Positions 2,071-45,700 of a stretch of DNA of 64,000 bases are shown here, one piece after another. The stretch's first letter is position 1, and each line of letters starts with the position of its first letter. Source of the DNA: Astropecten irregularis (lineage: Eukaryota > Echinodermata > Asteroidea > Paxillosida > Astropectinidae); contig OZ020246.1 of assembly GCA_963971285.1 (NCBI GenBank), positions 11,515,217 through 11,579,216 on the forward strand. The letters are read 5' to 3'. The position numbers and the translations under genes are program-made. The notes under the pieces were generated by a model. That model was not told the DNA's origin, did not search any database, and saw only the letters and a program-made list of their open reading frames with translations.

Positions 2071-2109
2071 ATTTACAATCTGTAACCACGCCCTTCCCTC
2101 GATACCAAC

Positions 2110-14717: not shown

Positions 14718-15717
14718 ACATTTTTACTATACTCTCTATAGAAACCCTGATTGTTTACAGTATTTCTTTTCTCCACGAACGATTTCTTATATATTACTTT
14801 ACACGAATGCGCATGTTTTATTTCACTCCATAATTTTTAAATAAAGTGATTCTTAAAAAAAAAACCGAAACCTTGCCAATGAGTCGGCTTCTATATTTCA
14901 GGGAATTATACTGCGCCTCGGAGCAAGGGTAATTGATTGCTAGAATTACTTATGCACATGCATTCTAGCAGGGGTGGCATATCAAACACTGCGTATCAAG
15001 CTTCACCCATGTTCCTGCATAGCATGCATAATATAATAGTTTTGAATCAATCAGGCGCTGCATGCTTGCATGCATGCTCTGCAAAAGAGCCGCAGCTCAA
15101 CTCAGACGAACTTCGCTTTGCATGGACAAAATCAGAAACTTCCTAACAAATTTGTAGAAATATTTCTCGGTCCACAATTCAATTTTATGCGCAGTTCAGA
15201 TTAAACAAATATGCCAATATTTGATACTTGCGAAGGTATTAATCAAGCTCATGCTTTGGAAATAAAATGGTTTTACTTTTTGGCTTCGGAATTAAATTCC
15301 TTTTTCGGCAGAAAATACATGTAAACTGAAGCAGTTTAATTTTTATGCACCATTCTTTCTCTGCTTTTGTGAAATAATGAGGATTTGGGAAAGTTGCTAT
15401 TTTTCCATTTGAGTTATGTCACTCTTATTTTATTTGATTTTTATATTAATTTTCTTTTTACGGAAAGTGAAATTGACGGCCCGTGACAGTAAAAAATTTA
15501 AACTGATCGAAAATGCAGTCCATCTGCCTGAGTGGCCTGTCACCGTAAACTCTCTATTTCATTTCTGATCGACCGTAAAAGTGGTAGTGCGCCCTCACGA
15601 GTCGATGGTGCGCGAATTCGTTCACAAGCCAACCGGGAGTTTCTTCCGTCAACAATCAATTTTGAGCAGACGCTCAAACAACTTCTGAAAAGTGTCAGAA
15701 AATGTAGTTTTAGCAAA

Positions 15718-18700: not shown

Positions 18701-21700
18701 GGAATTTTGTTGTATTGTTTTCAGGATTCTTTTAATACTGTAACAATCACAGCCTTGTCAATAAGTTGGGCTCTAGAGCTCAAATTTTGAAATGTGACAC
18801 CATTTTGTTTCTGTGTGTTATTATTGTACAGAATGTCCAGACAGGTGATAGAGAGCACAAGTATGAGGGTCATCCAACCTGCATTACTCAATGTCACATG
18901 AGTCCTGATAATACCAAGTTTGTTACCTCATGCTGGGACAAGAGAATCCGTTTATGGGATGTAGAAACCGGACAAGTCATTGTGAGTATACCGAAGCCAG
19001 GGCCTAATACACCGATCCAGTAGGCAATGCCCCCTGACAAATTGACCAATCACAACGCGATATTTAAGGTCCGACAAATTGCCGCCATTTTGTCCGACAA
19101 AATGTTTTAAATTGTGTATTCTTTACTACACACTTTTCGTTGAGTTTACTTTTGTTTCGTATGTACAAGGCAATTCTATGACAAATCCGAGTTTTATTCT
19201 GAACCATGGTCAAGCGGTGTTTATATTTTCATTATATGTCTGACTCTCGATGCCCTGGCTGAGAGGAAATGTACATTTTTGGCCTTTTGCAAAACCAAAG
19301 TCCAACAGAGATAGGTGGCCGATCGTGACACGTTATGTGCGTGCGCGTGTGCGTTGTTGCTTGGACGTTGCTATGAATTCTCAATGCATTACCATGAAAA
19401 CCACACTGTGGTATATTGTGGTATTCAGGATACCACACTTACTACAGGAAAATTGAGTGGTAAATTGTGGTATGCAGGTAGGTTAGGGTTAATAAAATTT
19501 GAGTCGGGGGAAGTCACTTGACATCTCTGCCGTCCGGAACATCTTTAACCCTTACCCTCATTCATAGCACACGTGTGTGATATCCTGAATACCACAATAT
19601 ACCACAACGTAGTTTTCATGGCAATACTTGGTTTATCAGTGATCCAGTTCTCCCTGTGGAGACTGTGGTAGTGTGAGGTAAGCAGCTCTTATCTTGTATG
19701 TAAATGTAGCGGGTTAGGGTTAATATGCTTATTTTCTCTGCATTATTTGCACAGTGGACTAGCTTACAGGGAGGCATAGGAACGTGCTGTCAGTTTTCAC
19801 ATGATGGGAAGACCATAGCCTCTGGCACTGACCTAGACAACAGTTTGAACATATGGGATGCTGAGAATGGTACTATTATCCAGTCTAAGAAAAGTAAGTA
19901 CTCACATTATCAAACCCCTTCTTCCATACTACCTTTAAGCAGCTTTATGAAATGGTCCCAGATTGTAGTCTTGACGAATAGGACTGAGACTGGACTGAGA
20001 CTTGAGCAGAGAGACCTGTAATTTGACCCTAGGAACTCGACACAGACAGCTCTGAGTCTTATCCCAATGTCCTCAGGATGAGTTGAGACCCCTTCATCTT
20101 CAACCTGATTCTTTCTGTTTCATTGGCAGAGCTTCACGGCAGTAGCCTCACCAGCTGCAAGTTCTCCCCTGACGATTCAAGAGTTTGCACAACCTCCATG
20201 GATATGACAACCAAACTGTGGGACGTCGCCACGCAGACTGTAACCATTAAACTGGGGTGAGACTTGACATTTAGGATGAGAAACTTTTATGACGTGTGTA
20301 AAATTCATGGAAAATAACTTTGGAGTGAGGATTTCACTGTGCATTGCATATGTATTACAGGAATTTTGTATTCAGTAAAAGGGGAACAAAGACAAATTTA
20401 CTGTTGCACGATTCGAACCAATAATGATCCAGCCCTGTGTTGGTAGTGTCCCAAGTAGTCAACTATCTTTGTCCGTTTACCAGTCAAAATCCATGCAATC
20501 ACACATTCCATTAATTACAGTGGAATGTCTATAACGAACACGGCGGGTTGCACAGATATTTTCCCTTATAGTGGTTGTCCGTTATAGTGATTTAAAGAAC
20601 CATATTCGATATGTATTATTGTACACAAAAATTGAGAGTCAAGGATGGTGTTCGGTAAAGCCAAATGTTCATTAGACCGAAAAAAAAAAATGGTTGTGTT
20701 GCCCTCAAGTGGAAAAATTAAAATTTTGGGTCAGTCGGTCGATTTAAAAAATTTTTTTTTGCCGACTTTCAAACATGATTTTATCGTGAATACCAAGCAG
20801 GATGTATGGTCACCAGGGCTTATAAATTAACGGTCTTGGGTCGTTTTGAGGAGACACGCTTTTTTACTGCTAAATCTTACATTTTCTGTCAAAAATGGTG
20901 AGTTTTTATACTTTAGGACTCAAACGAAAAATAAATAAATAAAATCCCGACCCAAAGTTTTGGCATTTTACGGTTGGTCGCTGAGGGCAACACAACAATT
21001 TTTTTTTTTCGGCCTTATTGTGGCGTTCCACTGTGTATCCCATGGATCATTTCAAATGCACCCAACATTAGCTATGCAGCAAACCTGAGAAACAGTATTT
21101 GCGGGATCACTCAATTGATGCTCAAAGAGGATGCAGCTTTTTTAATCAATATAATCATTAAGTAGGATTTGAAGCTTTGCATGGTGGAAGTAACATAATA
21201 AGGAAAGGTTTGCGGAGACACCATGTATAATCTCTTTATAGATGTGTGGTTCTGAAAAGAAGCGGTGAGAAGTTGTTATCTCGACGTTCCGGCCAGTGTA
21301 CTCTGGCCGTCCTCAGGAGAGTGTGTGAAAGTATAATCATGAAATAACCACAAGGGAAACTGACTGGATTCATTGGAACGCTGTATTTTGTTTTATTTCA
21401 CAGCGGTCATATCAACATAATATCCTGCTGCTGTTTCAATAAAGATGAGCGACGCCTATGCACGGGATCCTGGGATAAACAGCTGCAAGTTTGGGACGTA
21501 TCTACGGGGATGTACCGATCAGAGGGACCGGTCACCTTCAGCAAAGGTCATGAAGGCTCTATCAGTTCCTGCAGATTCAGTGAAGATGGTGAGTAACAAT
21601 AGATGATTTTCAGCTTAAAGGTACAGTACAGGATTGGTAAACATACCCAAACAGAAATGCTCACAGATTTACGTACAACTTTCAGGGTATGAAGATGGTG

Positions 21701-24700
21701 CTGGTAGAAACATACTGTTAAAACATTTCCGGCTGAATGCTGTATTTATACAGAAATTAGTAATTCAAAGACCAAAAAAAAAACAGTTTTGATCTCAGGG
21801 TAAGATCAAAACCACTCTTTATGTTTTATAAGAAAAATTTGAGTCCGGTTTACACTATTTTCTTGTGACTCAGATGTCAAATTTTCACAGGTTTATTATT
21901 TCATGTACATGCTGAATCAGACAAAGTGTGAGTGCTGTTTCTTTGACCTTTACCAATCATGTATTTTACCTTTAACCTTAAAAACTAGAGATTATATCTT
22001 TGAAATGTGAATAGAGACAAAGGGACTTGAGTGGGATTCGAACCTGCGAATATCGCACTGATTCTCAAGAAAGAACGAAACAAAAATGAGTTTGGGAGCC
22101 CTGGAAATGTGATACCTTTGGGGCAGCTTCACAGAATCCAGAGTTGTTGACTCGAGTCAGTGACTTGGACTCAAGTCCGACTCGAGTCACCAATTTTTGT
22201 GACTTGCGACTTGACTTGACTTGGAACAAAATGACTCGAGACTTGACTTGACTTGTGAAAATTTGACTTGGTTACAACTCTGACAGAATCTGTCAAAATG
22301 GTTGCCATGGAATCTCCTCTCTGTTGTCATGCAAACACATAATCTTCACGTGTTATTAGCTCATTGTGATCACATAAAGTACGTTTAGGGAACATTTTGG
22401 AATGGCTGTGTGGTTGTCTGTTGAAGACGGTATTGCTCAGGTTTCGGAGGCATTTGTTGCTCAATGAGTACTGGGGCATGTTATAGGTCTTAGGGATACT
22501 ATGAAGATGCTGTCTAGGGCTGTCTTAAACAGGTGTCTTACTTTGAAGTAATTTTTCCATCATGATGAAAATAAATAACAACGTACAGGGCTCGAATTTC
22601 GTGAAAAAGGGCACTGGACAGCAGGTCTAGTAACTGAAGTGCTCATTTTACTAGCCCTGAACTTTTTAACTAGACCTGTGGCATTCATGTACATAGGAAA
22701 ACTGTAATTGTATGCAATTGTGTCAAAAAATCATCAATTTAGGAACCATTTCAATTGTGCAAGGAAAACAAAATCACTAGACAGCCGGACTAGTGCAGAA
22801 CACACTTTACTAGACCGACACTGAAATTACTAGACTCGGTCCACGGCCTAGTGGATATTTCGAGCCCTGACATACTATTTGATACCATTTATTAACTAAA
22901 TATTGTACAATACCAGAAAGGCTAATTCTAAAGCACCCCAGACATCCATACATCTTCTATGTGTACATTCTGTGCTGATCTGACCAACAACAATTTCAGA
23001 TATTCACTGGTACCACTGACCTTTTACAACAGGGAAATCTCTCAGCCAGGATTTTCTTAGCTGTTTGGCGGTAGTTCTGGTTAAACAAACAGTAAATGAA
23101 CACATTGCAAGCGCTGTTACACATGACTAACTGTGTAACTAGGAATTTTACCCACCCAGGGCTCTCTGTATGAGTCAAATTTTGCACGAAATCGTTCACA
23201 TTGTAAGGTACGTAACAAACAATAAAAGCCACAGTGACCATAACAAATGTTTTCAGAGCTTTGTTGTTCTGAATATTGCCTGCCTGATTTTCGTTGTTTC
23301 GAAGTTGATGCGCTCGACTGATTTTGATCAGGCGATAATATATTAATGTTATTATCAGTGTGGGAAATACATTTCCTAAAAAGAGAGTTGTTGTGCTGGA
23401 TAAAATGTTGGTTACTGGCATACAATAACCAGTTTCTGTTTTGTAAATGGCTGAGGTACCAGTGAATAAAAATACAGTAATTAAAACATTGACTGATGCT
23501 ACAAGTACAAGTATGATGGCACGCCTTCTGGTACACCATACTGGGAATTTGTAGGGTCGAGTGACGGCAATGTATCTCTCAATATTTAAAAAGATAATAC
23601 AATTCATAGACATGATGCAACTTAGTCCAAACGGAAGTGCTAACAAATAGCAGGTCAAATCACCAAATGGCCATCTGTCTAAGGCTGAAGAGATGACACT
23701 AACCAACGTGGATATACCAACAATGAGGTCATACACAGCCAGTGTAGTCATGAGAACTTTGGTGCTGTCCGCCAAGTTTGATACCCGACGAGTCACAGCA
23801 ATGCAGAGAATATTTCCAGATATGATCAGCAATCCCAGGATGGTATTGAAGCAAGTACGGAGGGCGATGAGGGGTGGGGACAGACCTGAAACTTCCATGG
23901 ATGTATTGGCCATTATCCAGCTGGATAGAAATCCTCTCCAATGTTCCTTGTAATGACTCGGTAATGTCTACATTGGATGTTGGTACATGCAAGGAGGACT
24001 GTCAATCTCACTGTCTACACTGTCTGCTTGTTATCAAGAACCATAAATTACCATCACTGGTCAGTTGGACTTGAGAGTGGCTATGGTATGTAAAGAAACG
24101 ATGAGTCCAGTACACTGATGTCCACTGAGTGGCTGAAGAATCCTTGAAATGTTTGCCACTAGTGCAGATGTGGTCAATTTTACCTCACGGCGTTTGACAG
24201 TTCAGTCACAATCCAGCATTGATGCTAGTCTTAGTATGGTTCCTACTAGAAGTCAAACATACCAGTGTAAATATTCTAGCTGAGTGTTTAGTAGGACATG
24301 TATGACTCCGTCAGTTTAAGCATACACCGGTATTAAAGGAGTATTATGTTCCTCTTGTAGTTACCAAACCGCTGTTGTGTTATCCCAATGAGGCAGACTG
24401 ATCATTCAAATTGATGTCAGTGCTTGATGGTAAATTCTCATCCCACAAACACTTGGTTTCATCTGTTCACTTTATACTGAACTTGTAATGCTACTACATG
24501 CTTCCTACATGCAGGTAGATGTAACACTGGTGTGTAAATCATATATGCCCTACCTTATCACTGCCTGTAATAAAAACAACTGACATTGATACTAATTGAG
24601 TGATCTGTTTATTACAAGTCCATTATTGAGCCGGGTCCATTTAGGAGTGCTGAATCTGTACATTTTGCATAATTGCAATCAGATGTAAGCAGTAGACACT

Positions 24701-27700
24701 GCACTTGTAAGTCATTGTCAGTTATCATCAAGTGTCTCTGCTTATGACTGCATTTCCAATATGAAGATCCATAGTGTTTCATGTAGATTTATTAACTGAC
24801 TATCATCATATTATACCACATCAACCAGCTGACAGGATCTCTGTTTGTAAGACTGGTTTTCCTAAGAATCTCCATCTTTCCATTTTGCCAACTTGATCAC
24901 GAATGGCTTACATGTACAATGAAAACCAGATGAGTTTGTTGTCATTGATGAAGTACAGAAAGAGTTGGCTGAGTTATTGACTAAATGAGTGGATGGTATT
25001 CTATGGATGGGAGATGATATTATTACATCAGTATTAGAGCATGTTACAGGACCAGGGAATGTGTAACAGTGTGACATCTTAATTGCCTGCCTTACATTAA
25101 CTTATAATTACACATATTCCCATCTCATAAAGGACAGCTTTACCCCCCTTTCAGACAGGCGTGCCAGGGTCGCGCCGAACTAAATAGATAAGAAGTGACC
25201 CTAGGTCGACCCAATTCAGATTTTGGTTTCAGACAGGTGAACTTAATACATTGGAGTAGCCCTAAAACTGGGCCTACAAACAAACGGACAACTTGGGGCC
25301 ATAGCAACAGCTCCGTAGAAAACTTTTCGGGCAGTGTTGTTTACGATTCAGACCGTACGTTGTCGACTTGGTTGTTGCGAGGAGGAAATTGACAAAAGCA
25401 TAATTTTGATTTTGACTGTTGTTGTCGTCGTATATACACAACCGACACGACTGGCATTGTGGCCGTCATATTTTGTTTTTTACTATAAGGCCAACTTCAT
25501 CTTTGACTTTGCCTTCAAAATAATTAATTTTGATGTTTTTGTATAGCCTACCTTGGCAAAGGTCTATTGAAAAATACACCAAATGATGTACGACCGGCAG
25601 ACGATTTCCATGCCAAAAAGTTTTGTATGTATGCATTGTGGGATATCACTGCAGTTTTCTGCTCATTTGCATATTTGCATTGAGTTCGGCTCATGACTAG
25701 AGCGACGTCTGAAACGATGTCGCTCTAGCGCCGTTCTGAACGACCCAGACCGTCGATCTTTCGGCATCAGGCGCGCCTGGTCGCTCCTAATTGTTTCAGA
25801 CGTCAAACTTTCTATGTACTTAATTCATATCTTGACTTTTAATTGGTTCGGCGCGACGCTAGAACGCCTGTCTGAAACGGGGGTTATATACCGGTAATAA
25901 ACCCCAATACATGTATATGGTACAATTGCAGATGACCATTATAATGAAAGTAAATTGCCTATAAAGACTGATAACACTCTTTCCAGTACGTACATTTGGT
26001 ATCATTTATTAGCTAAATATTGTACAACGACAGAAAGGCTAATTCTAAAGCACCCCAGACATCCATACATCTTCTATGAGTACATTCTGTGCTGATCTGA
26101 CCAACAACAATTTCAGATATTCACTGGTACCACTGACCTTTTACAACAGGGAAATCTCTCAGCCAGGATTTTCTTAGCTGTTTGGCGGTAGTTCTGGTTA
26201 AACAAACAGTAAATGAACACATTGCAAGCGCTGTTACACATGACTAACTGTGTAACTAGGAATTTTACCCACCTAGGGCTCTCTGTATGAGTCAAAATTT
26301 GCACGAAATCGTTCACATTGTAAGGTACGTAACAAACAATAAAAGCTACAGTGACCATAACAAATGTTTTCAGAGCTTTGTTGTTCTGAATGTTGCCTGC
26401 CTGATTTTCATGGTTTCGAAGTTGATGCTCTCGACTGATTTTGATCATGCGACAATATGCCAATGTTATTATTATTGTGGGAAATACATTTCCTAAAAAG
26501 AGAGTTGTGGCACTGGTTAAAATGTTGGTAACCTGTATACAATGACCAGTTGCTGTATTGTAAATGGCTGAGGTAGGCCTGCCAGTGCATAAAAGTACAA
26601 CAATTAAAAGACTGACTGATGTTGCAAGTACAAGTATGATGGCACGCCTTCTGGTACACCATACCGGGAATTTGTAGGGTCGAGTGACGGCAATGTATCG
26701 CTCAATGTTTAAAAATACAATACAATTCATAGACATGGTGCAACTTAGTCCAAATGTAAGTGCTAACAAATAGCAGGTCAAATCACCAAATGGCCATCTG
26801 TCTAAGGCTGAAGAGATGACACTAACCAACGTGGATATACCAACAATCAGGTCATACACAGCCAGTGTAGTCATGAGAACTTTGGTGCTGTCGGCCAAGT
26901 TTGATACCCGACGAGTCACAGCAATGCAGAGAATATTTCCAGATATGATCAGCAATCCCAGGATGGTATTGAAGCAAGTACGGAGGGCGATGAGGGGTGG
27001 GGACAGACCTGAAACTTCCATGGATGTATTGGCCATTATCCAGCTGGATAGAAATCCTCTCCAATGTTCCTTGTAATGACTCGGTAATGTCTACATTGGA
27101 TGTTGGTACATGCAAGGAGGACTGTCAATCTCACTGTCTACACTGTCTGCTTGTTATCAAGAATCATTAATTACCATCACTGGTCAGTTGGACTTGAGAG
27201 TGGCTATGGTATGTAGAGAAACAATGAGTCCAGTACACTGATGACCACTGAGTGGTTCAAGAATCCTTGAAATGTTTGTCACTAGTGCAGATGTGGTCAA
27301 TTTTACCTCACGGCGTGGGACAGTTCAGTCACAATCCAGCATTGATGCTAGTCTTAGTATGGTTCCTACTAGAAGTCAAACATACTAGTGTAAATATTCT
27401 AGCTGAGTGTTCAGTAGAACATGTATCACTCCGTCAGTTTAAGCATACACCGGTATTAAAGGAGTATTATGTTCCTCTTGTAGTGACCAAACTACTGTTG
27501 TATTATCCCAATGAGGCAGTCTGATCATTCAAATTGATGTCAGTGCTTGATGGTAAATTCTCATCCCACAAACACTTGGTTTCATCTGTTCACTTTATAC
27601 TGAACTTGTAATGCTACTACATGCTTCATAGATGCAGGTAGATGTAACACTGGTGTGTAAATCATATATGCCCTACCTTATCACTGCCTGTAATTAAAAC

Positions 27701-30700
27701 AACTGACATTGATACTAATTGAGTGATCTGTTTATTACAAGTCCATTATTGAGCCTGGTCCATTTAGGAGTGCTGCATCTGTACATTGCATAATTGCAAT
27801 CAGATGTAAGCAGTAGACACTGCACTTGTAAGTCATTGTCAGTTATCATCAAGTGTCTCTGCTTATGACTGCATTTCCAATATGAAGATCCATAGTGTTT
27901 CATGTAGATTTATTAACTGACTATCATCATATTATACCACATCAACCAGCTGACAGGATCTCTGTTTGTAAGACTGGTTTTCCTAAGAATCTCCATCTTT
28001 CCATTTTGCCAACTTGATCACGAATGGCTTACATGTACAATGAAAACCAGATGAGTTTGTTGGCATTGATGAAGTACAGAAAGAGTTGGCTGAGTTATTG
28101 ACTAAATGAGTGGATGGTATTCTATGGATGGGAGATGATATTATTACATCAGTATTAGAGCATGTTACAGGACCAAGGGATGTGTAACAGTGTAACATCT
28201 AAATTGTCTGCCTTACATTAACTTATTTACAGATATTCCCATCTCATAAAGGACAGCTTTAGATCTACCGGTAATAAACCCAATATATGGTACAATTGCA
28301 GATGACCATTATTATGAAATTAAATTGCCTATAAAGGCTGATAACACTCTTTCCTGTTATAACCACAAATCATGGATGAAGGAATCAAAAAGATATTTCT
28401 GGTACGTACATTTGGTATAGTTTATATTAGGTAAATATTGTACAATGACAGAAAGGCTAATTCTAAAGCACCCCAGACATCCATACATCTTCTATGAGTA
28501 CATTCTTTGCTGATCTGACCAACAACAATTTCAGATATTCACTGGTACCACTGACCTTTTACAACAGGGAAATCTCTCAGCCAGGATTTTCTTAGCTGTT
28601 TGGCGATAGTTCTGGTTAAACAAACTGTAAATGAACACATTGCAAGCGCTGTTACACATGACTAACTGTGTAGCTAGGAATTTTACCCACCCAGGGCTCT
28701 CTGTATGAGTCAAAATGTTCACCAAATTGTTCACATTGTAAGGTACGTAACAAACAGTAAAAGCTACGGTGACCATAACAAATGTTTTCAGAGCTTTGTT
28801 GTTCTGAATATTGCCTTCCTGATTTTCATGGTTTCGAAGTTGATGCTCTCGACTGATTTTGATCATGCGACAATATGCCAATGTTATTATCATTGTGGGA
28901 AATAGATTTCCTAAAAAGAGAGTTGTGGCACTGGTTAAAATGTTGGAAACCGGTATACAATGACCAGTTGCTGTATTGTAAATGGCTGAGGTAGGCCTGC
29001 CACTGCATAAAAGTACAACAATTAAAAGACTGACTGATGTTGCAAGTACAAGTATGATGGCACGCCTTCTGGTACACCATACCGGGAATTTGTAGGGTCG
29101 AGTGACGGCAATGTATCGCTCAATGTTTAAAAATACAATACAATTCATAGACATGGTGCAACTTAGTCCAAATGTAAGTGCTAACAAATAGCAGGTCAAA
29201 TCACCAAATGGCCATCTGTCTAAGGCTGAAGAGATGACACTAACCAACGTGGATATACCAACAATCAGGTCATACACGGCCAGTGTAGTCATGAGAACTT
29301 TGGTGCTGTCGGCCAAGTTTGATACCCGACGAGTCACAGCAATGCAGAGAATATTTCCAGATATGATCAGCAATCCCAGGATGGTATTGAAGCAAGTACG
29401 GAGGGCGATGAGGGGTGGGGACAGACCTGAAACTTCCATGGATGTATTGGCCATTATCCAGCTGGATAGAAATCCTCTCCAATGTTCCTTGTAATGACTC
29501 GGTAATGTCTACATTGGATGTTGGTACATGCAAGGAGGACTGTCAATCTCACTGTCTACACTGTCTGCTTGTTATCAAGAACCATAAATTACCATCACTG
29601 GTCAGTTGGACTTGAGAGTGGCTATGGTATGTAAAGAAACGATGAGTCCAGTACACTGATGTCCACTGAGTGGCTCAAGAATCCTTGAAATGTTTGTCAC
29701 TAGTGCAGATGTGGTCAATTTTACCTCACGGCGTGGGACAGTTCAGTCACAATCCAGCATTGATGCTAGTCTTAGTATGGTACGTACTAGAAGTCATACA
29801 TACCAGTGTAAATATTCTAGCTGAGTGTTCAGTAGAACATGTATCACTCCGTCAGTTTAAGCATACACCGGTATTAAAGGAGTATTATGTTCCTCTTGTA
29901 GTGACCAAACCGCTGTTGTATTATCCCAATGAGGCAGACTGATCATTCAAATTGATGTCAGTGCTTGACGGTAAATTCTCATCTCACAAACACTTGGTTT
30001 CATCTGTTCACTTTATACTGAACTTGTAATGCTACTGCATGCTTCCTACATGCAGGTAGATGTAACACTGGTGTGTAAATCATATATGCCCTACCTTATC
30101 ACTGCCTGTAATTAAAACAACTGACATTGATACTAATTGAGCGATCTGTTTATTACAAGTCCATTATTGAGCCTGGTCCATTTAGGAGTGCTGCATCTGT
30201 ACATTGCATAGTTGCAATCAGATGTAAGTAGTAGACACTGCACTTGTAAGTCATTGTCAGTTATCATCAAGTGTATCTGCTTATGACTGCATTTCCAATA
30301 TGAAGATCCATAGTGTTTCATGTAGATTTATTAACTGACTATCATCTTTATACCACATCAACCAGCTGACAGGACTCTCTGTTTGTAAGACTGGTTTTTC
30401 TAAGAATCTCCATCTTTCCATTTTGCCAAGTTGATCACGAATGGCTTACATGTACAATGGCAACCAGATGAGTTTGTTGGCATTGATGAAGTACGGAAAG
30501 AGTTGGCTGAGTTATTGACTAAATGAGTGGATGGTATTCTATGGATGGGAGATGATATTATTACATCAGTATTAGAGCATGTTACAGGACCAAGGGATGT
30601 GTAACAGTGTAACATCTTAATTGCCTGCCTTACATTAACTTATTTACAGATATTCCCATCTCATAAAGGACAGCTTTAGATCTACCGGTAATAAACCCAA

Positions 30701-33700: not shown

Positions 33701-36700
33701 CCTTACAGGACCAGGGAATGTGTAACAGTGTAACATCTTAATTGCCTGCCTTACATTAACTTATTTACAGATATTCCAATCGCATAAAGGACAGCTTTAG
33801 ATCTACCGGTAATAAACCCAATATATGGTACAATTGCAGATGATCATTATAATGAAAGTAAATTGCCTATAAAGGCTGATAACACTCTTTCCTGTTATAA
33901 CCACAAATCATGGATGAAGGAATCAAAAAGAAGCCTGAGTAGCCTCTACATTAAGATGTCTAATTTGTTCTCACAACTATAATTAATACATGTACTTGAA
34001 ACTAATCACTGAAATCATTGAACCAATGGACCCTTCCGGCCTATCAATCAAACCTTTCACTTTTACCAATTGGAGGACGTCTTTTACTCAGGTGACCAGA
34101 AAAGCCTCAGTCAAACTCAGTCACATCCATAGAAACACACATGTGGGCGGGGCTTAAGAACAAAGCCGGAACAGTCCATTAGTGTCAAACTGTACATATC
34201 CACACCCTTAAAATCAACAGCGTACGTTTGGTACAGTTTATATTAATTAGCTAAATATTGTACAATGACAGAAAGGCTAATTCTAAAGCACCCCAGACAT
34301 CCATACATCTATGAGTACATTCTGTGCTGATCTGACCAACAACAATATCAGATATTCACTGGTACCACTGACCTTTTACAACAGGGAAATCTTTCAGCCA
34401 GGATTTTCTTAGCTGTTTGGCGGTAGTTCTGGTTAAACAAACAGTAAATGAACACATTGCAAGCGCTGTTACACATGACTAACTCTGTAGCTAGGAATTT
34501 TACCCACCTAGGGCTCTCTGTATGAGTCAACATTTGCACGAAATCGTTCACATTGTAAGGTACGTAACAAACAATAAAAGCTACGGTGACCATAACAAAT
34601 GTTTTCAGAGCGTTGTTGTTCTGAATATTGCCTTCCTGATTTTCATGGTTTCGAAGTTGATGCTCTCGACTGATTTTGATCAGGCGATAATATGCTAATG
34701 TTATTATCATTGTGGGAAACAGATTTCCTAAAAAGAGAGTTGTGGCACTGGTTAAAATGTTGGAAACCGGTATACAATGACCAGTTGCTGTATTGTAAAT
34801 GGCTGAGGTAGGCCTGCCAGTGCATAAAAGTACAACAATTAAAAGACTGACTGATGTTGCAAGTACAAGTATGATGGCACGCCTTCTGGTACACCATACC
34901 GGGAATTTGTAGGGTCGAGTGACGGCAATGTATCGCTCAATGTTTAAAAATACAATACAATTCATAGACATGGTGCAACTTAGTCCAAATGTAAGTGCTA
35001 ATAAATAGCAGGTCAAATCACCAAATGGCCATCTGTCTAAGGCTGAAGAGATGACACTAACCAACGTGGATATACCAACAATGAGGTCATACACAGCCAG
35101 TGAAGTCATGAGAACTTTGGTGCTGTCCGCCAAGTTTGATACCCGACGAGTCACAGCAATGCAGAGAATATTTCCAGATATGATCAGCAATCCCAGGATG
35201 GTATTGAAGCAAGTACGGAGGGCGATGAGGGGTGGGGACAGACCTGAAACTTCCATGGATGTATTGGCCATTATCCAGCTGGATAGAAATCCTCTCCAAT
35301 GTTCCTTGTAATGACTCGGTAATGTCTACATTGGATGTTGGTACATGCAAGGAGGACTGTCAATCTCACTGTCTACACTGTCTGCTTGTTATCAAGAACC
35401 ATAAATTACCATCACTGGTCAGTTGGACTTGAGAGTGGCTATGGTATGTACAGACAGGATGAGTCCAGTACACTGATGACCACTGATGAGTGGCTCAAGA
35501 ATCCTTGAAATGTTTGTCACTAGTGCAGATGTGGTCAATTTTACCTCACGGCGTGGGACAGTTCAGTCACAATCCAGCATTGATGCTAGTCTTAGTATGT
35601 TTCATACTAGAAGTCAAACATACCAGTGTAAATATTCTAGCTGAGTGTTCAGTAGAACATGTATCACTCCGTCAGTTTAAGCATACACCGGTATTAAAGG
35701 AGTATTATGTTCCTCTTGTAGTGACCAAACTACTGTTGTATTATCCCAATGAGGCAGTCTGATCATTCAAATTGATGTCAGTGCTTGATGGTAAATTCTC
35801 ATCCCACAAACACTTGGTTTCATCTGTTCACTTTATACTGAACTTGTAATGCTACTACATGCTTCCTAGATGCAGGTAGATGTAACACTGGTGTGTAAAT
35901 CATATATGCCCTACCTTATCACTGCCTGTAATTAAAACAACTGACATTGATACTAATTGAGTGATCTGTTTATTACAAGTCCATTATTGAGCCTGGTCCA
36001 TTTAGGAGTGCTGCATCTGTGCATTGCATAATTGCAATCAGATGTAAGCAGTAGACACTGCACTTGTAAGTCATTGCCAGTTATCATCAAGTGTCTCTGT
36101 GTATGACTGCATTTCCAATATGAAGATCCGTAGTGTTTAATGTAGCTTTATTAACTGACTATCATCATTATACCTCATCAACCAGCTGACAGGACTCTCT
36201 GTTTGTAAGACTGGTTTTCCTAAGAATCTCCATCTTTCCAAGTTGCCAACTTAATCATGAATGGCTTACATGTACAATGACAACCAAATGAGTTTGTTGG
36301 CATTGATGAAGTACGGAAAGAGTTGGCTGAGTTATTGACTAAATGAGTGGATGGTATTCTATGGATGGGAGATGATATTATTACATCAGTATTAGAGCAT
36401 GTTACAGGACCAAGGGATGTGTAACAGTGTAACATCTTAATTGCCTGCCTTACATTAACTTATAATTACAGATATTCCCATCTCATGAAGGACAGCTTTA
36501 TATACCGGTAATAAACCCCAATATATGGTACAATTGCAGATGACCATTATAATGAAAGTAAATTGCCTATAAAGGCTGATAACACTCTTTCCTGTTATAA
36601 CCACAAATCATGGATGAAGGAATCAAAAAGGTACTTCTGGTACGTACATTTGGTACAGTTTATATTAGCTAAATATTGTACAATAAGAGAAAGGCTAATT

Positions 36701-39700
36701 CTAAAGCACCCCAGACATCCATACATCTTCTATGAGTACATTCTGTGCTGATCTGACCAACAACAATTTCAGATATTCACTGGTACCACTGACCTTTTAC
36801 AACAGGGAAATCTCTCAGCCAGGATTTTCTTAGCTGTTTGGCGGTAGTTCTGGTTAAACAAACAGTATATGAACATGTGCATTGCAAGCGCTGTTACACA
36901 TGACTAACTGTGTAACTAGGAAGTTTACCCACCCAGGGCTCTCTGTATGAGTCAAAATTTGCACGAAATCGTTCACATTGTAAGGCACGTAACAAACAAT
37001 AAAAGCTACGGTGACCATAACAAATGTTTTCAGAGCTTTGTTGTTCTGAATATTGCCTTCCTGATTTTCGTTGTTTCGAAGTTGATGCTCTCGACTGATT
37101 TTGATCATGCGACAATATGCCAATGTTATTATTATTGTGGGAAATAGATTTCCGGAAAGGAGAATTATTGCACAGGTAAAAATGTTGGTAGTCGGCATAC
37201 AATAACCAGTTTCTGTATTATATATGGCTGGGGTACCAGTGCCTAATAATATGGCACCTAAATTACCCGCTGATGCTACAAGTACAAGTATGATGGCACG
37301 CCTTCTGGTACACCATACCGGGAATTTGTAGGGTCGAGTAACGGCAATGTATCGCTCAATGTTTAAAAAGACAATACAAGTCATTGACATGGTGCAACTT
37401 TGTCCAAATGTAAGTGCTAACAAATAGCAGGTCAAATCACCAAATGGCCATCTGTCTAAGGCTGAAGAGATGACACTAACCAACATGGATATACCAACAA
37501 TCAGGTCATACACGGCCAGTGTAGTCATGAGAACTTTGGTGCTGTCGGCCAAGTTTGATACCCGACGAGTCACAGCAATGCAGAGAATATTTCCAGATAT
37601 GATCAGCAATCCCAGGATGGTATTGAAGCAAGTACGGAGGGCGATGAGGGGTGGGGACAGACCTGAAACTTCCATGGATGTATTGGCCATTATCCAGCTG
37701 GATAGAAATCCTCTCCAATGTTCCTTGTAATGACTTGGTAATGTCTACATTGGATGTTGGTACATGCAAGGAGGACTGTCAATCTCACTGTCTACACTGT
37801 CTGCTTGTTATCAAGAACCATAAATTACCATCACTGGTCAGTTGGACTTGAGAGTGGCTATGGTATGTACAGACAGGATGAGTCCAGTACACTGATGACC
37901 ACTGATGAGTGGCTCAAGAATCCTTGAAATGTTTGTCACTAGTGCAGATGTGGTCAATTTTACCTCACGGCGTGGGACAGTTCAGTCACAATCCAGCATT
38001 GATGCTAGTCTTAGTATGTTTCATACTAGAAGTCAAACATACCAGTGTAAATATTCTAGCTGAGTGTTCAGTAGAACATGTATCACTCCGTCAGTTTAAG
38101 CATACACCGGTATTAAAGGAGTATTATGTTCCTCTTGTAGTGACCAAACTACTGTTGTATTATCCCAATGAGGCAGTCTGATCATTCAAATTGATGTCAG
38201 TGCTTGATGGTAAATTCTCATCCCACAAACACTTGGTTTCATCTGTTCACTTTATACTGAACTTGTAATGCTACTACATGCTTCCTAGATGCAGGTAGAT
38301 GTAACACTGGTGTGTAAATCATATATGCCCTACCTTATCACTGCCTGTAATTAAAACAACTGACATTGATACTAATTGAGTGATCTGTTTATTACAAGTC
38401 CATTATTGAGCCTGGTCCATTTAGGAGTGCTGCATCTGTGCATTGCATAATTGCAATCAGATGTAAGCAGTAGACACTGCACTTGTAAGTCATTGCCAGT
38501 TATCATCAAGTGTCTCTGTGTATGACTGCATTTCCAATATGAAGATCCGTAGTGTTTAATGTAGCTTTATTAACTGACTATCATCATTACACCTCATCAA
38601 CCAGCTGACAGGACTCTCTGTTTGTAAGACTGGTTTTCCTAAGAATCTCCATCTTTCCAAGTTGCCAACTTAATCATGAATGGCTTACATGTACAATGAC
38701 AACCAAATGAGTTTGTTGGCATTGATGAAGTACGGAAAGAGTTGGCTGAGTTATTGACTAAATGAGTGGATGGTATTCTATGGATGGGAGATGATATTAT
38801 TACATCAGTATTAGAGCATGTTACAGGACCAAGGGATGTGTAACAGTGTAACATCTTAATTGCCTGCCTTACATTAACTTATAATTACAGATATTCCCAT
38901 CTCATGAAGGACAGCTTTATATACCGGTAATAAACCCCAATATATGGTACAATTGCAGATGACCATTATAATGAAAGTAAATTGCCTATAAAGGCTGATA
39001 ACACTCTTTCCTGTTATAACCACAAATCATGGATGAAGGAATCAAAAAGGTACTTCTGGTACGTACATTTGGTACAGTTTATATTAGCTAAATATTGTAC
39101 AATAAGAGAAAGGCTAATTCTAAAGCACCCCAGACATCCATACATCTTCTATGAGTACATTCTGTGCTGATCTGACCAACAACAATTTCAGATATTCACT
39201 GGTACCACTGACCTTTTACAACAGGGAAATCTCTCAGCCAGGATTTTCTTAGCTGTTTGGCGGTAGTTCTGGTTAAACAAACAGTATATGAACATGTGCA
39301 TTGCAAGCGCTGTTACACATGACTAACTGTGTAACTAGGAAGTTTACCCACCCAGGGCTCTCTGTATGAGTCAAAATTTGCACGAAATCGTTCACATTGT
39401 AAGGCACGTAACAAACAATAAAAGCTACGGTGACCATAACAAATGTTTTCAGAGCTTTGTTGTTCTGAATATTGCCTTCCTGATTTTCGTTGTTTCGAAG
39501 TTGATGCTCTCGACTGATTTTGATCATGCGACAATATGCCAATGTTATTATTATTGTGGGAAATAGATTTCCGGAAAGGAGAATTATTGCACAGGTAAAA
39601 ATGTTGGTAGTCGGCATACAATAACCAGTTTCTGTATTATATATGGCTGGGGTACCAGTGCCTAATAATATGGCACCTAAATTACCCGCTGATGCTACAA

Positions 39701-42700
39701 GTACAAGTATGATGGCACGCCTTCTGGTACACCATACCGGGAATTTGTAGGGTCGAGTAACGGCAATGTATCGCTCAATGTTTAAAAAGACAATACAAGT
39801 CATTGACATGGTGCAACTTTGTCCAAATGTAAGTGCTAACAAATAGCAGGTCAAATCACCAAATGGCCATCTGTCTAAGGCTGAAGAGATGACACTAACC
39901 AACGTGGATATACCAACAATGAGGTCATACACGGCCAGTGTAGTCATGAGAACTTTGGTGCTGTCGGCCAAGTTTGATACCCGACGAGTCACAGCAATGC
40001 AGAGAATATTTCCAGATATGATCAGCAATCCCAGGATGGTATTGAAGCAAGTACGGAGGGCGATGAGGGGTGGGGACAGACCTGAAACTTCCATGGATGT
40101 ATTGGCCATTATCCAGCTGGATAGAAATCCTCTCCAATGTTCCTTGTAAAGACTCGGTAATGTCTACATTGGATGTTGGTACATGCAAGGAGGACTGTCA
40201 ATCTCACTGTCTACACTGTCTGCTTGTTATCAAGAACCATAAATTACCATCACTGGTCAGTTGGACTTGAGAGTGGCTATGGTATGTACAGACAGGATGA
40301 GTCCAGTACACTAATGTCCTTTGATGAGTGGCTCAAGAATCCTTGAAATGTTTGTCACTAGTGCAGATGTGGTCAATTTTACCTCACGGAGTGGGACAGT
40401 TCAGTCACAATCCAGCATTGATGCTAGTCTTAGTATGGTTCATACTAGAAGTCAAACATACCAGTGTAAATATTCTAGCTGAGTGTTCAGTAGAACATGT
40501 ATCACTCCGTCAGTTTAAGCATACACCGGTATTAAAGGAGTATTATGTTCCTCTTGTAGTGACCAAACTGCTGTTGTATTATCCCAATGAGGCAGTCTGA
40601 TCATTCAAATTTGATGTCAGTGCTTGATGGTAAATTCTAATCCCACAAACACTTGGTTTCATCTGTTCACTTTATACTGAACTTGTAATGCTACTACATG
40701 CTTCCTAGATGCAGGTAGATGTAACACTGGTGTGTAAATCATATATGCCCTACCTTATCACTGCCTGTAATTAAAACAACTGACACTGATACTAATTGAG
40801 TGATCTGTTTATTACAAGTCCATTATTGAGCCTGGTCCATTTAGGAGTGCTGAATCTGTACATTGCATAATTGCAATCAGATGTAAGCAGTAGACACTGC
40901 ACTTGTAAGTCGTTGTCAGTTATCATCAAGTGTCTCTGCTTATGACTGCATTTCCAATATGAAGATCCATAGTGTTTCATGTAGATTTATTAACTGACTA
41001 TCATCATATTATACCACATCAACCAGCTGACAGGATCTCTGTTTGTAAGACTGGTTTTCCTAAGAATCTCCATCTTTCCATTTTGCCATCTTGATCACGA
41101 ATGGCTTACATGTACAATGACAACCAGATGAGTTTGTTGGCATTGATGAAGTACGGAAAGAGTTGGCTGAGTTATTGACTAAATGAGTGGATGGTATTCT
41201 ATGGATGGGAGATGATATTATTACATCAGTATTAGAGCATGTTACAGGACCAGTGGATGTGTAACAGTGTAACATCTTAATTGCCTGCCTTACATTAACT
41301 TATAATTACAGATATTCCCATCTCATAAAGGACAGCTTTAGATACCGGTAATAAACCCAATATGTGGTACAATTGCAGATGACCATTATAATGAAAGTAA
41401 ATTGCCTATAAAGGCTGATAACACTCTTTCCTGTTATAACTACAAATCATGGATGAAGGAATCAAAAAGGTACTTCTGGTACGTACATTTGGTATAGTTT
41501 ATATTAGGTAAATATTGTACAATGACAGAAAGGCTAATTGTAAAGCACCCCAGACATCCATACATCTATGAGTACATTCTGTGCTGATCTGACCAACAAC
41601 AATATCAGATATTCACTGGTACCACTGACCTTTTACAACAGGGAAATCTCTCAGCCAGGATTTTCTTAGCTGTTTGGCGGTAGTTCTGGTTAAACAAACA
41701 GTAAATGAACACATTGCAAGCGCTGTTACACATGACTAACTGTGTAACCAGGAATTTTACCCACCCAGGGCTCTCTGTATGAGTCAACATTTGCACGAAA
41801 TTGTTCACATTGTAAGGTACGTAACAAACAATAAAAGCTACGGTGACCATAACAAATGTTTTCAGAGCTTTGTTGTTCTGAATATTGCCTTCCTGATTTT
41901 CATGGTTTCGAAGTTGATGCTCTCGACTGATTTTGATCATGCGACAATATGCCAATGTTATTATCATTGTGGGAAATAGATTTCCTAAAAAGAGAGTTGT
42001 GGCACTGGTTAAAATGTTGGAAACCGGTATACAATGACCAGTTGCTGTATTGTAAATGGCTGAGGTAGGCCTGCCAGTGCATAAAAGTACAACAATTAAA
42101 AGACTGACTGATGTTGCAAGTACAAGTATGATGGCACGCCTTCTGGTACACCATACCGGGAATTTGTAGGGTCGAGTGACGGCAATGTATCGCTCAATGT
42201 TTAAAAATACAATACAATTCATAGACATGGTGCAACTTAGTCCAAATGTAAGTGCAAACAAATAGCAGGTCAGATCACCAAATGGCCATCTGTCTAAGGC
42301 TGAAGAGATGACACTAACCAACGTGGATATACCAACAATCAGGTCATACACGGCCAGTGTAGTCATGAGAACTTTGGTGCTGTCGGCCAAGTTTGATACC
42401 CGACGAGTCACAGCAATGCAGAGAATATTTCCAGATATGATCAGCAATCCCAGGATGGTATTGAAGCAAGTACGGAGGGCGATGAGGGGTGGGGACAGAC
42501 CTGAAACTTCCATGGATGTATTGGCCATTATCCAGCTGGATAGAAATCCTCTCCAATGTTCCTTGTAATGACTTGGTAATGTCTACATTGGATGTTGGTA
42601 CATGCAAGGAGGACTGTCAATCTCACTGTCTACACTGTCTGCTTGTTATCAAGAACCATAAATTACCATCACTGGTCAGTTGGACTTGAGAGTGGCTATG

Positions 42701-45700
42701 GTATGTAAAGAAACGATGAGTCCAGTACACTGATGTCCTTTAATGAGTGGCTCAAGAATCCTTGAAATGTTTGTCACTAGTGCAGATGTGGTCAATTTTA
42801 CCTCATGGCGTAGGACAGTTCAGTCACAATCCAGCATTGATGCTAGTCTTAGTATGGTTCCTACTAGAAGTCAAACATACTAGTGTAAATATTCTAGCTG
42901 AGTGTTCAGTACAACATGTATCACTCCGTCAGTTTAAGCATACACCGGTATTAAAGGAGTATTATGTTCCTCTTGTAGTGACCAAACCGCTGTTGTATTA
43001 TCCCAATGAGGCAGTCTGATCATTCAAATTGATGTCAGTGCTTGATGGTAAATTCTCATCCCACAAACATTTGGTTTCATCTGTTCACTTTATACTGAAC
43101 TTGTAATGCTACTACATGCTTCCTAGATGCAGGTAGATGTAACACTGGTGTGTAAATCATATATGCCCTACCTTATCACTGCCTGTAATTAAAACAACTG
43201 ACATTGATACTAATTGAGTGATCTGTTTATTACAAGTCCATTATTGAGTCTGGTCCATTTAGGAGTGCTGAATCTGTACATTGCATAATTGCAATCAGAT
43301 GTAAGCAGTAGACACTGCACTTGTAAGTCATTGTCAGTTATCATCAAGTGTCTCTGCTTATGACTGCATTTCCAATATGAAGATCCATAGTGTTTTATGT
43401 AGATTTATTAACTGACTATCATCATTATACCACGTCAACCAGCTGACAGGACTCTCTGTTTGTAAGACTGGTTTTCCTAAGAATCTCCATCTTTCCAATT
43501 TGCCAACTTGATCACGAATGGCTTACATGTACAATGGCAACCAGATGAGTTTGTTGGCATTGATGAAGTACAGGAAGAGTTGGCTGAGTTATTGACTAAA
43601 TGAGTGGATGGTATTCTATGGATGGGAGATGATATTATTACATCAGTATTAGAGCATGTTACAGGACCAAGGGATGTGTAACAGTGTAACATCTTAATTG
43701 CCTGCCTTACATTAACTTATTTACAGATATTCCCATCTCATGAAGGACAGCTTCAGATACCGGTAATAAACCTCAATATATGGTATAATTGCAGATGACC
43801 ATTATAATGAAAGTAAATTGCCTATAAAGGCTGATAACACTCTTTCCTGTTATAACCACAAATCATGGATGAAGGAATCAAAAAGAAGCCTGAGTAGCCT
43901 CTACATTAAGATGTCTAATTTGTTCTCACAACTATAATTAATACATGTACTTGAAACTAATCACTGAAATCATTGAACCAATGGACCCTTCCGGCCTATC
44001 AATCAAACCTTTCACTTTTACCAATTGGAGGACGTCTTTTACTCAGGTGACCAGAAAAGCCTCAGTCAAACTCAGTCACATCCATAGAAACACACATGTG
44101 GGCGGGGCTTAAGAACAAAGCCGGAACAGTCCATTAGTGTCAAACTGTACATATCCACACCCTTAAAATCAACAGCGTACGTTTGGTACAGTTTATATTA
44201 ATTAGCTAAATATTGTACAATGACAGAAAGGCTAATTCTAAAGCACCCCAGACATCCATACATCTATGAGTACATTCTGTGCTGATCTGACCAACAACAA
44301 TATCAGATATTCACTGGTACCACTGACCTTTTACAACAGGGAAATCTTTCAGCCAGGATTTTCTTAGCTGTTTGGCGGTAGTTCTGGTTAAACAAACAGT
44401 AAATGAACACATTGCAAGCGCTGTTACACATGACTAACTCTGTAGCTAGAAATTTTACCCACCTAGGGCTCTCTGTATGAGTCAACATTTGCACGAAATC
44501 GTTCACATTGTAAGGTACGTAACAAACAATAATTCAAGGAGGACTGTCAATCTCACTGTCTACACTGTCTGCTTGTTATCAAGAACCATAAATTACCATC
44601 ACTGGTCAGTTGGACTTAAAAGTGGCTATGGTATGTAAAGAAACGATGAGTCCAGTACACTGATGTCCACTGAGTGGCTCAAGAATCCTTGAAATGTTTG
44701 TCACTAGTGCAGATGTGGTCAATTTTACCTCACGGCGTGGGACAGTTCAGTCATAATCCAGCATTGATGCTAGTCTTAGTATGGTTCCTACTAGAAGTCA
44801 AACATACCAGTGTAAATATTCTAGCTGAGTGTTTAGTAGAACATGTATCACTCCGTCAGTTTAAGCATACACCGGTATTAAAGGAGTATTATGTTCCTCT
44901 TGTAGTGACCAAACTGCTGTTGTATTATCCCAATGAGGCAGTCTGATCATTCAAATTGATGTCAGTGCTTGATGGTAAATTCTCATCCCACAAACACTTG
45001 GTTTCATCTGTTCACTTTATACTGAACTTGTAATGCTACTACATGCTTCCTAGATGCAGGTAGATGTAACACTGGTGTGTAAATCATATATGCCCTACCT
45101 TATCACTGCCTAGGAAGCAACTGACTGTGATACTAATTGAGTGATCTGTTTACTGTTAACAAGTCCATTATCATGCCCAGTCCATTTAGAAGTGTTGCAT
45201 CTGTACATTGCATATGGTACATGTAATTGCAATAAGATGTAAGCAGTAGACACTGCACCTGTATTAAGTCATTGTCAGTTATCATCAAGTGTCTCTGCTT
45301 ATGACTGCATTTCCAATATGAAGATCCATAGTGTTTCATGTAGATTTATTAACTGACTATCATCATTATGCCTGACCATTGACTGACCATTGACATGTGC
45401 AAGAACAAACACCATAACCTATGAAATGTTGCTTTCAACAAATAACTTGTACTCCTGTTTGTTTTTGTTCATCAGGTAGTATGTTGGTGTCCGGCTCCTA
45501 TGACCAGACTGTAGTGGTGTGGGACGCTGAAAACTGTGGACCAAAGTTAACTCTGAAGGTGAGGCAATGATCTTGTGTTGATCATTCTCAATGTTATGCA
45601 TTTACCATACACCCTTATCACAGATAGCTTACCCGTTTGTTTTTTCGTCCATAGTGCTGTGAATTGTTTTCCTTAATACATAGATGCTTACTTAATACTA

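Follow-up and report, generated by a model that had tools for sequence, protein, structure and literature searches.

The window, by which we mean the whole analysed stretch of 64,000 nucleotides from Astropecten irregularis, contains a nine-exon WD-repeat gene on the forward strand and, on the opposite strand, a tandem array of receptor genes located in its sixth intron. The components of the host gene are listed below.

15718..15822, plus strand: host exon 1, with the start codon (MADIDFDPL...), an in-frame join and a GT donor
18334..18444, plus strand: host exon 2, joined in frame
18832..18981, plus strand: host exon 3, joined in frame
19755..19893, plus strand: host exon 4, joined in frame
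20130..20256, plus strand: host exon 5, joined in frame
21404..21588, plus strand: host exon 6, WD repeat 5 and the first half of repeat 6, ending in phase 1
21589..45475, plus strand: host intron 6, 23,887 bp
45476..45558, plus strand: host exon 7, encoding the remaining half of WD repeat 6
45715..45876, plus strand: host exon 8, WD repeat 7
46715..46858, plus strand: host exon 9, Cys-rich C-terminal tail and stop

Together, the nine exons form a single frame of 401 amino acids, and all eight introns have a GT donor and an AG acceptor. The seven other introns measure 156-2,511 bp, against the 23,887 bp of intron 6. The protein contains seven WD40 stretches (PF00400), the sixth of which is split by intron 6 and becomes whole only once exons 6 and 7 are joined. 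More specifically, the joined repeat scores 44.7 bits against the WD40 profile (cut-off 27 bits), while the separate halves score 19.6 and 19.7 bits and a join that skips exon 7 falls below the cut-off at 16.7 bits. Since exon 7 completes the repeat from position 45476, no extra exon is needed and a hidden exon between exons 6 and 7 was rejected; the end of exon 6 and the start of exon 7 set intron 6 at exactly 21589-45475. Among the 34 matches listed for the 475.7-Mb genome, the window is the sole place that matches all nine exons. The remaining 25 places are WD pieces of 23-42% identity, and no second intact host was found among the best matches listed; a decayed exon 6 near C9:18.0677 Mb comes in addition to these matches. 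The frame, the repeat 6 scores and the single place among the listed matches bear out the original prediction of a single gene made up of exons 1-6 and 7-9, joined in phase over 23.9 kb. WDR88 is a plausible candidate name. The host has the seven WD40 repeats of that protein, which are common to other WD40 families as well, and a phmmer comparison with the PDB returned general WD40 similarity. No Rfam match was found within the 64-kb window.

The receptor units are arranged head-to-tail, all on the minus strand.

22887..45369, minus strand: receptor array with a basic period of about 2,419 bp, comprising eight units that contain a receptor frame and one deleted unit
22996..23913, minus strand: receptor g1, intact, 305 aa, middle type A
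26113..27036, minus strand: receptor g2, intact, 307 aa, type B
28531..29454, minus strand: receptor g3, intact, 307 aa, type B
31226..32143, minus strand: receptor g4, intact, 305 aa, type A
34348..35271, minus strand: receptor g5, intact, 307 aa, type B
36854..37690, minus strand: receptor g6, 4-nt insertion in TM7, frame stops at 278 aa, type C
39273..40109, minus strand: receptor g7, 4-nt insertion as in g6, 99.8% identical to g6
41605..42528, minus strand: receptor g8, intact, 307 aa, type B, the reference copy
44306..44530, minus strand: remnant of the ninth copy, TM6-TM7 and tail, residues 233-307
35129..37893, no strand assigned: youngest duplication; a second copy of these 2,765 bp follows at an offset of +2,419 bp and differs by 7 mismatches

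Homology at 22887-45369 lies entirely inside the intron, so that the guests are flanked on both sides by coding exons of a single host and run antisense to it, as had been predicted. The count of nine whole-unit duplicates stands in part: this is a tandem receptor array, but only eight units hold a frame, six of them intact (305-307 aa) and two (g6 and g7) with a shared frameshift. In the ninth unit (44173-45372), a deletion of about 768 bp has taken away roughly the first 231 codons, start codon included, together with about 75 bp upstream. Given this deleted unit and the subfamily members found outside the array, calling the array complete was too strong. Short-word BLAST with host exons 6-9 and the flanks of the intron (E<=0.01) detected no host exon pieces within the units.

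The copies are 93-99.8% identical over 0.94 kb, and the spacers between them are uneven. An assembly error, in which the array was misplaced into the intron or its copy number inflated, appears extremely unlikely. The 2,765-bp repeat with its 7 mismatches could come from haplotype stitching, but individual units carry private landmarks: two of them each contain an inserted element whose ends are inverted, three of the eight have a segment of about 290 bp, and the ninth has its large deletion. Furthermore, the window contains no N and is located in a 28.8-Mb contig, and exons 6 and 7 have no other intact place in the genome among the listed matches.

The receptors match the class A profile PF00001 over positions 1-260 of 260 (E=1.6e-33), and their best solved relatives are the beta-1 adrenergic, histamine H2 and somatostatin receptors. 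The class A assignment thus holds, and so does the description as intronless for the coding region; an intron in the 5'-UTR could still be present. In the array copies, the D/E-R-Y motif reads E112-R113-Y114, with C88 located 25 residues before R113. R113 is invariant in a 22-row alignment, where C88 and C166 are kept at at least 90%; we take R113 to be Arg 3.50 and C88 to be Cys 3.25, paired with the Cys of the second extracellular loop. TM7 carries N272-V-F-I-Y276 (NVFIY) and not NPxxY, TM6 carries C235-Y-V-P238 and not CWxP, and TM4 has no Trp (Trp 4.50 is absent). Variants of these motifs are known in real class A receptors. The products are likely to be lineage-specific class A receptors, probably chemosensory, which may differ in ligand preference. 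Among viral contigs, 11 pattern matches to receptor relatives yielded no confirmed one. A structure model built from the array-only alignment reached a mean pLDDT of 36 and was unusable for pocket mapping.

The nearest receptor copies are a pair, 75-78% identical to the array, located between genes 6.5 Mb away (C9:18.06). The g8 unit and these two copies share alignments of 1.67 and 1.89 kb at 81-82%, which reach past the start codon by 0.66 and 0.9 kb on the upstream side. Beyond the 3' end of the pair, on the opposite strand, lies a relic of host exon 6 (C9:18067624-18067803), in the same arrangement as in the window. The relic matches over 59 bp at 83% (E=7e-13) and 47 bp at 79% (E=8e-6), with 15 of 20 residues alike and a similar donor-site region; a control search of six stretches (60 kb) gave a best E of 0.10. 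Exons 5, 7, 8 and 9 have no convincing match next to the pair, and no exon-6 relic was found at three other loci (60 kb searched). The position of the relic indicates that the pair arose from the nested locus by DNA-level copying, and on this ground we rejected the candidate that the pair had never been nested. Together with the upstream homology, the relic also led us to reject a retrocopy origin, for the pair and not for the first arrival in the WD-repeat gene. Copying along with exon 6 would make the nesting older than the array expansion, an order of events that we infer from the relic. The recurrence of exon 6 beside receptors further counts against a misplaced array.

The array copies have near-identical ends and a variable middle, which spans TM3-TM5. 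Two features of g8 delimit this pattern.

41974..42123, minus strand: variable block of g8, codons 136-185, comprising TM4, the second extracellular loop and the start of TM5
42403..42655, minus strand: 5' module of g8, 127 bp upstream and the first 42 codons

Among the eight array copies, the 5' module is 99-100% alike, and in the distant pair it still reaches 96-97%. Between the two loci, pS is 0.046 in codons 1-40 and 0.068 in codons 279-307, against 0.14-0.39 in between. Among array copies, 2,376 of 6,441 informative site pairs are incompatible, and neighbouring sites are more compatible than in 2,000 of 2,000 shuffles. This pattern suggests that exchange between copies (conversion) has kept the ends alike, though constraint could be the cause instead. 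Polymorphic columns make up 47 of 144 in the variable block compared with 112 of 1,418 in the spacers. Variable codons in the block comprise 28 replacement and 2 silent ones, and 27 and 19 elsewhere (p=0.0013). The block reaches a pN/pS of 1.29, with a bootstrap range of 0.80-2.45 that includes 1, and between the two distant copies themselves pN is 0.159 and pS 0.160. The range leaves room for relaxed constraint in the middle, but codons 1-93 (TM1-TM3) of the same genes are strongly constrained, with a pN/pS of 0.14. Selection may have driven the differences in the block, which is not proven by these ratios. Codons 186-215 (0.76) and 216-265 (0.91) are also raised, so the effect is not sharply confined to the block. 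A deep age of the block was unsupported: none of its 10 usable fourfold sites varies, contrary to what an old protected block would show.

The receptor clade, with support of 100/99, has three other loci, all antisense within host genes.

Around C9:13.461, antisense: clade locus in a dynein heavy-chain gene, DHC_N2 collinear
Around C12:17.407-17.411, antisense: clade locus in a dynein heavy-chain gene, DHC_N1 collinear
Around C22:6.796, antisense: clade locus in an acetyl-CoA-synthetase gene, with acetyl-CoA-synthetase exons

Since the distant pair derives from a nested locus, all four independent settlements of the clade are antisense-nested, and one gene outside the clade is probably antisense-nested as well, in a coiled-coil gene. 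As fourth powers, the corresponding p is 0.004 at an assumed rate of 0.25 and 0.06 at 0.5, counted after the pattern had been seen. The original prediction had called an array in one intron of an unrelated gene unusual; the array is there, but gene clusters in introns have been published and this clade nests antisense three more times. Such nesting might arise by chance, with a duplicating intronless family scattering through a genome in which introns hold a large share, no link between receptors and hosts, and relaxed constraint in the receptor middle. Nested genes are frequent in animals and account, across seven vertebrates, for 4.3-8.7% of protein-coding genes (PMC8467205), and the distant pair sits between genes. 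Set against the consistent antisense settlement and the uneven constraint described above, we regard this combination as possible but unlikely.

Mutual regulation has also been considered, whereby host pre-mRNA might silence the receptors wherever the host gene is expressed, or transcription of the receptors might affect the host. About 22 kb of host pre-mRNA is antisense to the receptors and all nine copies are so placed, which is a matter of geometry only, and the effects of opposite-strand nested genes on their C. elegans hosts are the topic of PMC12274878. The distant pair, in contrast, keeps its 5' module without a working host, and we consider such regulation quite improbable. The persistence of this pair also means that nesting is not required for survival.

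We favour, with moderate confidence, a history in which old antisense nesting was followed by a DNA copy to the distant site, unequal crossing-over, ends kept alike by exchange, and recurrent intronic settlement. In this account, a receptor gene, together with the region upstream of it, lies antisense in intron 6 of the WD-repeat gene and has long done so. Later, a DNA copy of exon 6 and the adjoining receptors would have been placed 6.5 Mb off, where the exon decayed and two receptors survive. Within the intron, where no host exon is harmed, unequal crossing-over would then have produced the young head-to-tail array, as its period, its units and the very recent 2.77-kb duplication suggest. 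Exchange may then hold both ends similar within the array and across the two loci, the 5' module plus TM1 on one side and the C-terminal tail on the other, while the TM3-TM5 sector, chiefly codons 136-185, would be free or driven to diverge. Transcription of the receptors presumably starts in the 5' module of each copy and runs opposite to that of the host. With antisense settlement at four independent hosts, such introns appear to be places where the clade is favoured or tolerated. A more far-reaching reading, which we consider doubtful, is that the clade has settled repeatedly, always antisense, in unrelated genes whose transcribed introns offer open chromatin or shelter, and that the array acts as a diversification engine. 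Exchange would then fix the promoter, TM1 and the tail but leave the ligand sector of TM3-TM5 variable, and the array would seed free copies that bear a scar of the host exon.

Studies of nested genes usually take them singly; here one clade is antisense-nested at every independent place found. With a young high-identity array and a free-standing pair that carries a host-exon relic, it can now be asked whether introns are preferred sites of landing or survival, and how host genes deal with introns enlarged by unequal crossing-over. The constant ends and variable middle furthermore provide a testable guess of the residues that set ligand specificity.

In the open-licence literature, we found no precedent for a receptor array inside an intron. 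Human bitter-receptor genes provide a related case, as their cluster is overlapped by PRH1 transcripts and intronless receptor genes thus lie within the span of another gene. Among echinoderms, starfish ApORs are rhodopsin-like receptors in tandem arrays with best matches such as the alpha-1A adrenergic receptor (PMC5442662), and the olfactory-receptor-like genes of sea cucumbers are likewise rhodopsin-like, tandem and mostly single-exon (PMC7042368). The receptors described here resemble both in being rhodopsin-like and tandem, a comparison by description and not by sequence; intronic nesting does not appear in those descriptions, as far as they go. The LRRTM genes of vertebrates lie antisense in alpha-catenin introns (PMC3933685) and share the single coding exon, the large intron and the several hosts, with nesting later lost in places. 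There, each host holds one gene, and genome duplication presumably multiplied host and guest jointly, whereas here an array is nested and the hosts are mostly unrelated. In insects, the last intron of CG18675 houses a cluster of TipE-like sodium-channel subunits, and an intron of Flo-2 contains GMC oxidoreductases (PMC3240667). Like the present array, these are several related genes together in one intron of an unrelated host, which makes the nested array a variant of a known arrangement. The TipE members lie on both strands and are conserved across insects, according to the same source, while the receptors are all antisense; they form a head-to-tail array of 93-99.8% identity that is still turning over, from a family nested in several hosts.

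The host of the receptor array is a plus-strand WD-repeat gene, and its originally predicted exons are borne out: all nine (15718-46858) join into a single 401-aa frame, the eight introns all have GT donors and AG acceptors, and Pfam recognizes seven WD40 stretches in the protein. The last base of exon 6 (21588) is the first of a codon whose other two bases open exon 7 at 45476. Intron 6 therefore spans 21589-45475 and measures 23,887 bp, the remaining seven introns ranging from 156 to 2,511 bp. The proposed in-phase join across it (1 then 2) was confirmed, as the intron splits WD repeat 6, which exceeds the cut-off of 27 bits only when exons 6 and 7 are joined (44.7 bits versus 19.6 and 19.7 for the halves). 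A join skipping exon 7 scores 16.7 bits. Among the best candidates of a search through the 475.7-Mb genome, in which the window occupies C9:11515217-11579216, the nine exons match at this locus only, and the other 25 of 34 matched places are WD pieces of 23-42% identity. Inverted copies (83%) at 19384-19496 and 45887-45998, in host introns 3 and 8, flank exons 4-8 together with the array and, if paired in the pre-mRNA, could loop out exons 4-8.

Array homology, determined by BLAST with one unit, covers 22887-45369, or 94% of intron 6. The intron has a further 1,298 bp at its left end and 106 bp at its right end, and would thus measure 1,404 bp if array-free. The original prediction of nine whole-unit duplicates holds for the tandem, antisense arrangement inside the intron, but not for the completeness of the units. 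Eight contain a minus-strand receptor frame, which is intact in six (305-307 aa); units g6 and g7 have a common 4-nt insertion in TM7 that stops the frame at 278 aa, and the ninth unit lost its start codon and ~231 codons to a ~768-bp deletion but kept TM6-TM7. Elements with inverted ends lengthen two single units (25142-25884 and 33271-33707, the latter with the target duplication TTA), and a ~290-bp segment lengthens three of the eight. The 2,765-bp stretch 35129-37893 is repeated 2,419 bp further with 7 mismatches and is the most recent duplication of the array, which may have grown by unequal crossing-over. By eye, an element with inverted GGGCTCGAA-like ends (22588-22872) adjoins the left array edge. 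All eight copies also have a 100-residue plus-strand frame without stops across from the conserved receptor start (e.g. 42266-42565), which most likely just mirrors the conservation of the coding strand.

The receptor matches PF00001 over the full profile length (E=1.6e-33), and its solved relatives include beta-1 adrenergic, histamine H2, and somatostatin receptors (E down to 3e-26). E112-R113-Y114, C88, and C166 are consistent with class A, with departures in TM7 (NVFIY), TM6 (CYVP), and TM4 (lacking Trp). Positions written as 3.50 or 5.50 follow the usual numbering conventions, anchored on R113 and P186. The receptors may have a chemosensory role.

Variation was compared among the eight copies in ungapped columns. 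In a block of codons 136-185, comprising TM4, the second extracellular loop, and the start of TM5, 47 of 144 columns are polymorphic versus 112 of 1,418 in the spacers (p=3e-15); the counts are 28/240 for codons 186-265 and 8/279 for codons 1-93, and no variation occurs along 183 bp around the start codon. Variable codons comprise 28 replacement and 2 silent ones in the block versus 27 and 19 outside (p=0.0013), and the block's 10 usable fourfold sites are all invariant. With g7 left out as a near-duplicate of g6, the seven remaining copies give the block a pN/pS of 1.29 (bootstrap 0.80-2.45), compared with 0.19 for codons 1-135 and 0.67 (0.32-1.62) for codons 186-307. Replacement is thus fast in the receptor middle, but a ratio above 1 in the block is not proven; diversifying selection may act on the receptors. 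The variable TM3 residues past position 90 (91, 94, 97, 100, 104, and 107) lie along one side and those of TM5 include 5.37-5.42, which together could mark the ligand sector.

The middles fall into three types (A: g1, g4; B: g2, g3, g5, g8; C: g6, g7) that are discordant with the spacers. Furthermore, incompatibility affects 2,376 of the 6,441 informative site pairs, and compatibility of neighbouring sites lies above all 2,000 shuffles. Pieces have therefore been exchanged between copies, possibly by conversion.

In a genome receptor search, 129 of 613 candidates were scored. Among these, the closest copies are C9:18066072 (78%) and C9:18063779 (75%), a pair 6.5 Mb from the array, followed by C12:17407226 (50%), C12:17409776 (47%), C9:13460811 (47%), and C22:6795633 (40%); the remaining scored matches outside the array reach at most 36%. 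In a tree of 22 receptors, with the array represented by three of its eight frames, the array and these six relatives form one clade (support 100/99), within which the array and the C9:18.06 pair form a subclade (99/98). Other runs of adjacent class A receptor matches occur at C16:10351126-10366662, C16:3.80-3.83 Mb, C20:14.40-14.44 Mb, and C17:14.76-14.79 Mb.

Array and pair diverge by 0-7% at -180 to +119 and 2% at +840-899, and by 8-31% across the middle, but only 5-7% at +600-659. Silent sites give 0.046 (codons 1-40), 0.068 (279-307), and 0.14-0.39 in between. Inter-locus conversion or constraint would each suffice to explain the alike ends. Between the loci, pN/pS exceeds 1 in the block only (1.49, a point value without an interval). 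A 253-bp 5' module, made up of upstream region and first receptor codons, is present at ten copies (eight in the array and the pair), and 54 bp of it in the ninth unit give 11 matches altogether. This module may contain the receptors' own promoter.

Unit 8 aligns with both copies of the pair over the gene and 0.66-0.9 kb upstream. Host exon 6 has a decayed copy past the receptor 3' end (C9:18067624-18067803), on the opposite strand to the receptors, in orientation and relative place as in the window. The relic matches over 59 bp at 83% (E=7e-13) and 47 bp at 79% (E=8e-6), keeps 15 of 20 residues of GYINIISCC..., and is also alike in a stretch across the former donor site. The best exon-6 match in six control stretches (60 kb) reached only E=0.10, and beside the pair no convincing match to host exons 5, 7, 8, or 9 turned up. 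From the upstream homology and the relic, the pair therefore arose by DNA-level copying of the nested locus and left the host, and the nesting itself appears to predate the young array.

The pair sits between two genes, the ends of both judged by eye. The left-hand gene, which we take to be leucine-aminopeptidase-like, runs away from the pair and has recognized M17 exons at 18055098 and 18052220 and an N-terminal domain match slightly under cut-off. On the right is a presumably kinesin-like coiled-coil gene, one piece of which matches HMMR_C below cut-off. An RVT_1 reverse-transcriptase fragment (C9:18060592-18061110, E=1.7e-14) lies ~3 kb from the pair. A dispersed repeat of the window (up to ~370 bp, ~78-92% alike), which has left a remnant in intron 6 to the left of the array, also occurs near the pair.

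Repeats and further genes in the window
1691-2076: minisatellite, period 52 bp
2024-2434, minus strand: open frame resembling the CUB exon 3139-3561 by eye, no Pfam match
2475-2686: minisatellite, period 34 bp
3139-3561, minus strand: CUB-domain exon (E=1e-7)
6394-6679: dispersed repeat
8642-8964: dispersed repeat
9159-9586: minisatellite, period 35 bp
14350-14719: dispersed repeat
21634-21779: dispersed repeat
47383-47748: dispersed repeat
51785-52151: dispersed repeat
56861-57556, minus strand: sorting-nexin-like gene (PX domain, E=7e-18; weak TPR match)
59433-59816, minus strand: possible N-terminal piece of that gene, a guess by eye
60772-61474: dispersed repeat

Receptors of the clade are nested antisense in three further hosts. 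At C9:13.46, a plus-strand receptor is flanked on both sides by collinear minus-strand dynein heavy chain exons, in the order DHC_N2 2-51 (below cut-off), 50-137, 133-197, receptor, 303-374; a fifth exon piece is without match. C12:17.41 holds two plus-strand receptors, enclosed by the DHC_N1 segments 113-166 and 210-284 of a different minus-strand dynein heavy chain. Because different parts of the dynein heavy chain protein are involved, these two do not represent one inherited nesting. At C22:6.796, a minus-strand receptor lies between acetyl-CoA synthetase exons.

Acetyl-CoA synthetase matches around the C22 receptor
C22:6778164, plus strand: ACAS_N domain match
C22:6786825, plus strand: weak exon match (E=8e-4)
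C22:6803938, plus strand: exon (E=2e-7)
C22:6804646, plus strand: exon with AMP-binding domain (E=4e-30)

Four of the five clade loci are antisense-nested now and the fifth, C9:18.06, derives from one of those four, so that independent settlements are antisense-nested in 4/4 cases. Calculated by hand, this gives p=0.004 for an assumed chance rate of 1/4 and 0.06 for an assumed 1/2. Since both rates are assumptions and the count was made after the pattern was noticed, recurrence beyond chance is a strong lead rather than a result. Residence in an intron may bring some benefit. Outside the clade, a receptor at C29:11.722 lies between minus-strand coiled-coil pieces. Of six pieces tested, two gave ordered DUF4686 matches under the cut-off, at 240-290 (E=9e-7) and 355-380 (E=0.0065), and the receptor's antisense nesting in a coiled-coil gene is only probable.

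Like this array, TipE-like genes in the last CG18675 intron and GMC oxidoreductases in a Flo-2 intron form clusters of related genes within a single intron of an unrelated host, according to PMC3240667, which also describes TipE genes that are no longer nested in silk moth and flour beetle. The LRRTM/alpha-catenin system (PMC3933685) resembles this clade in that single-exon guests lie antisense within several hosts. Tandem arrays of rhodopsin-like receptors are described for starfish (PMC5442662) and sea cucumbers (PMC7042368). With nested clusters, multi-host antisense guests, and echinoderm receptor arrays already known, the nested receptor array is therefore a variant of known phenomena.
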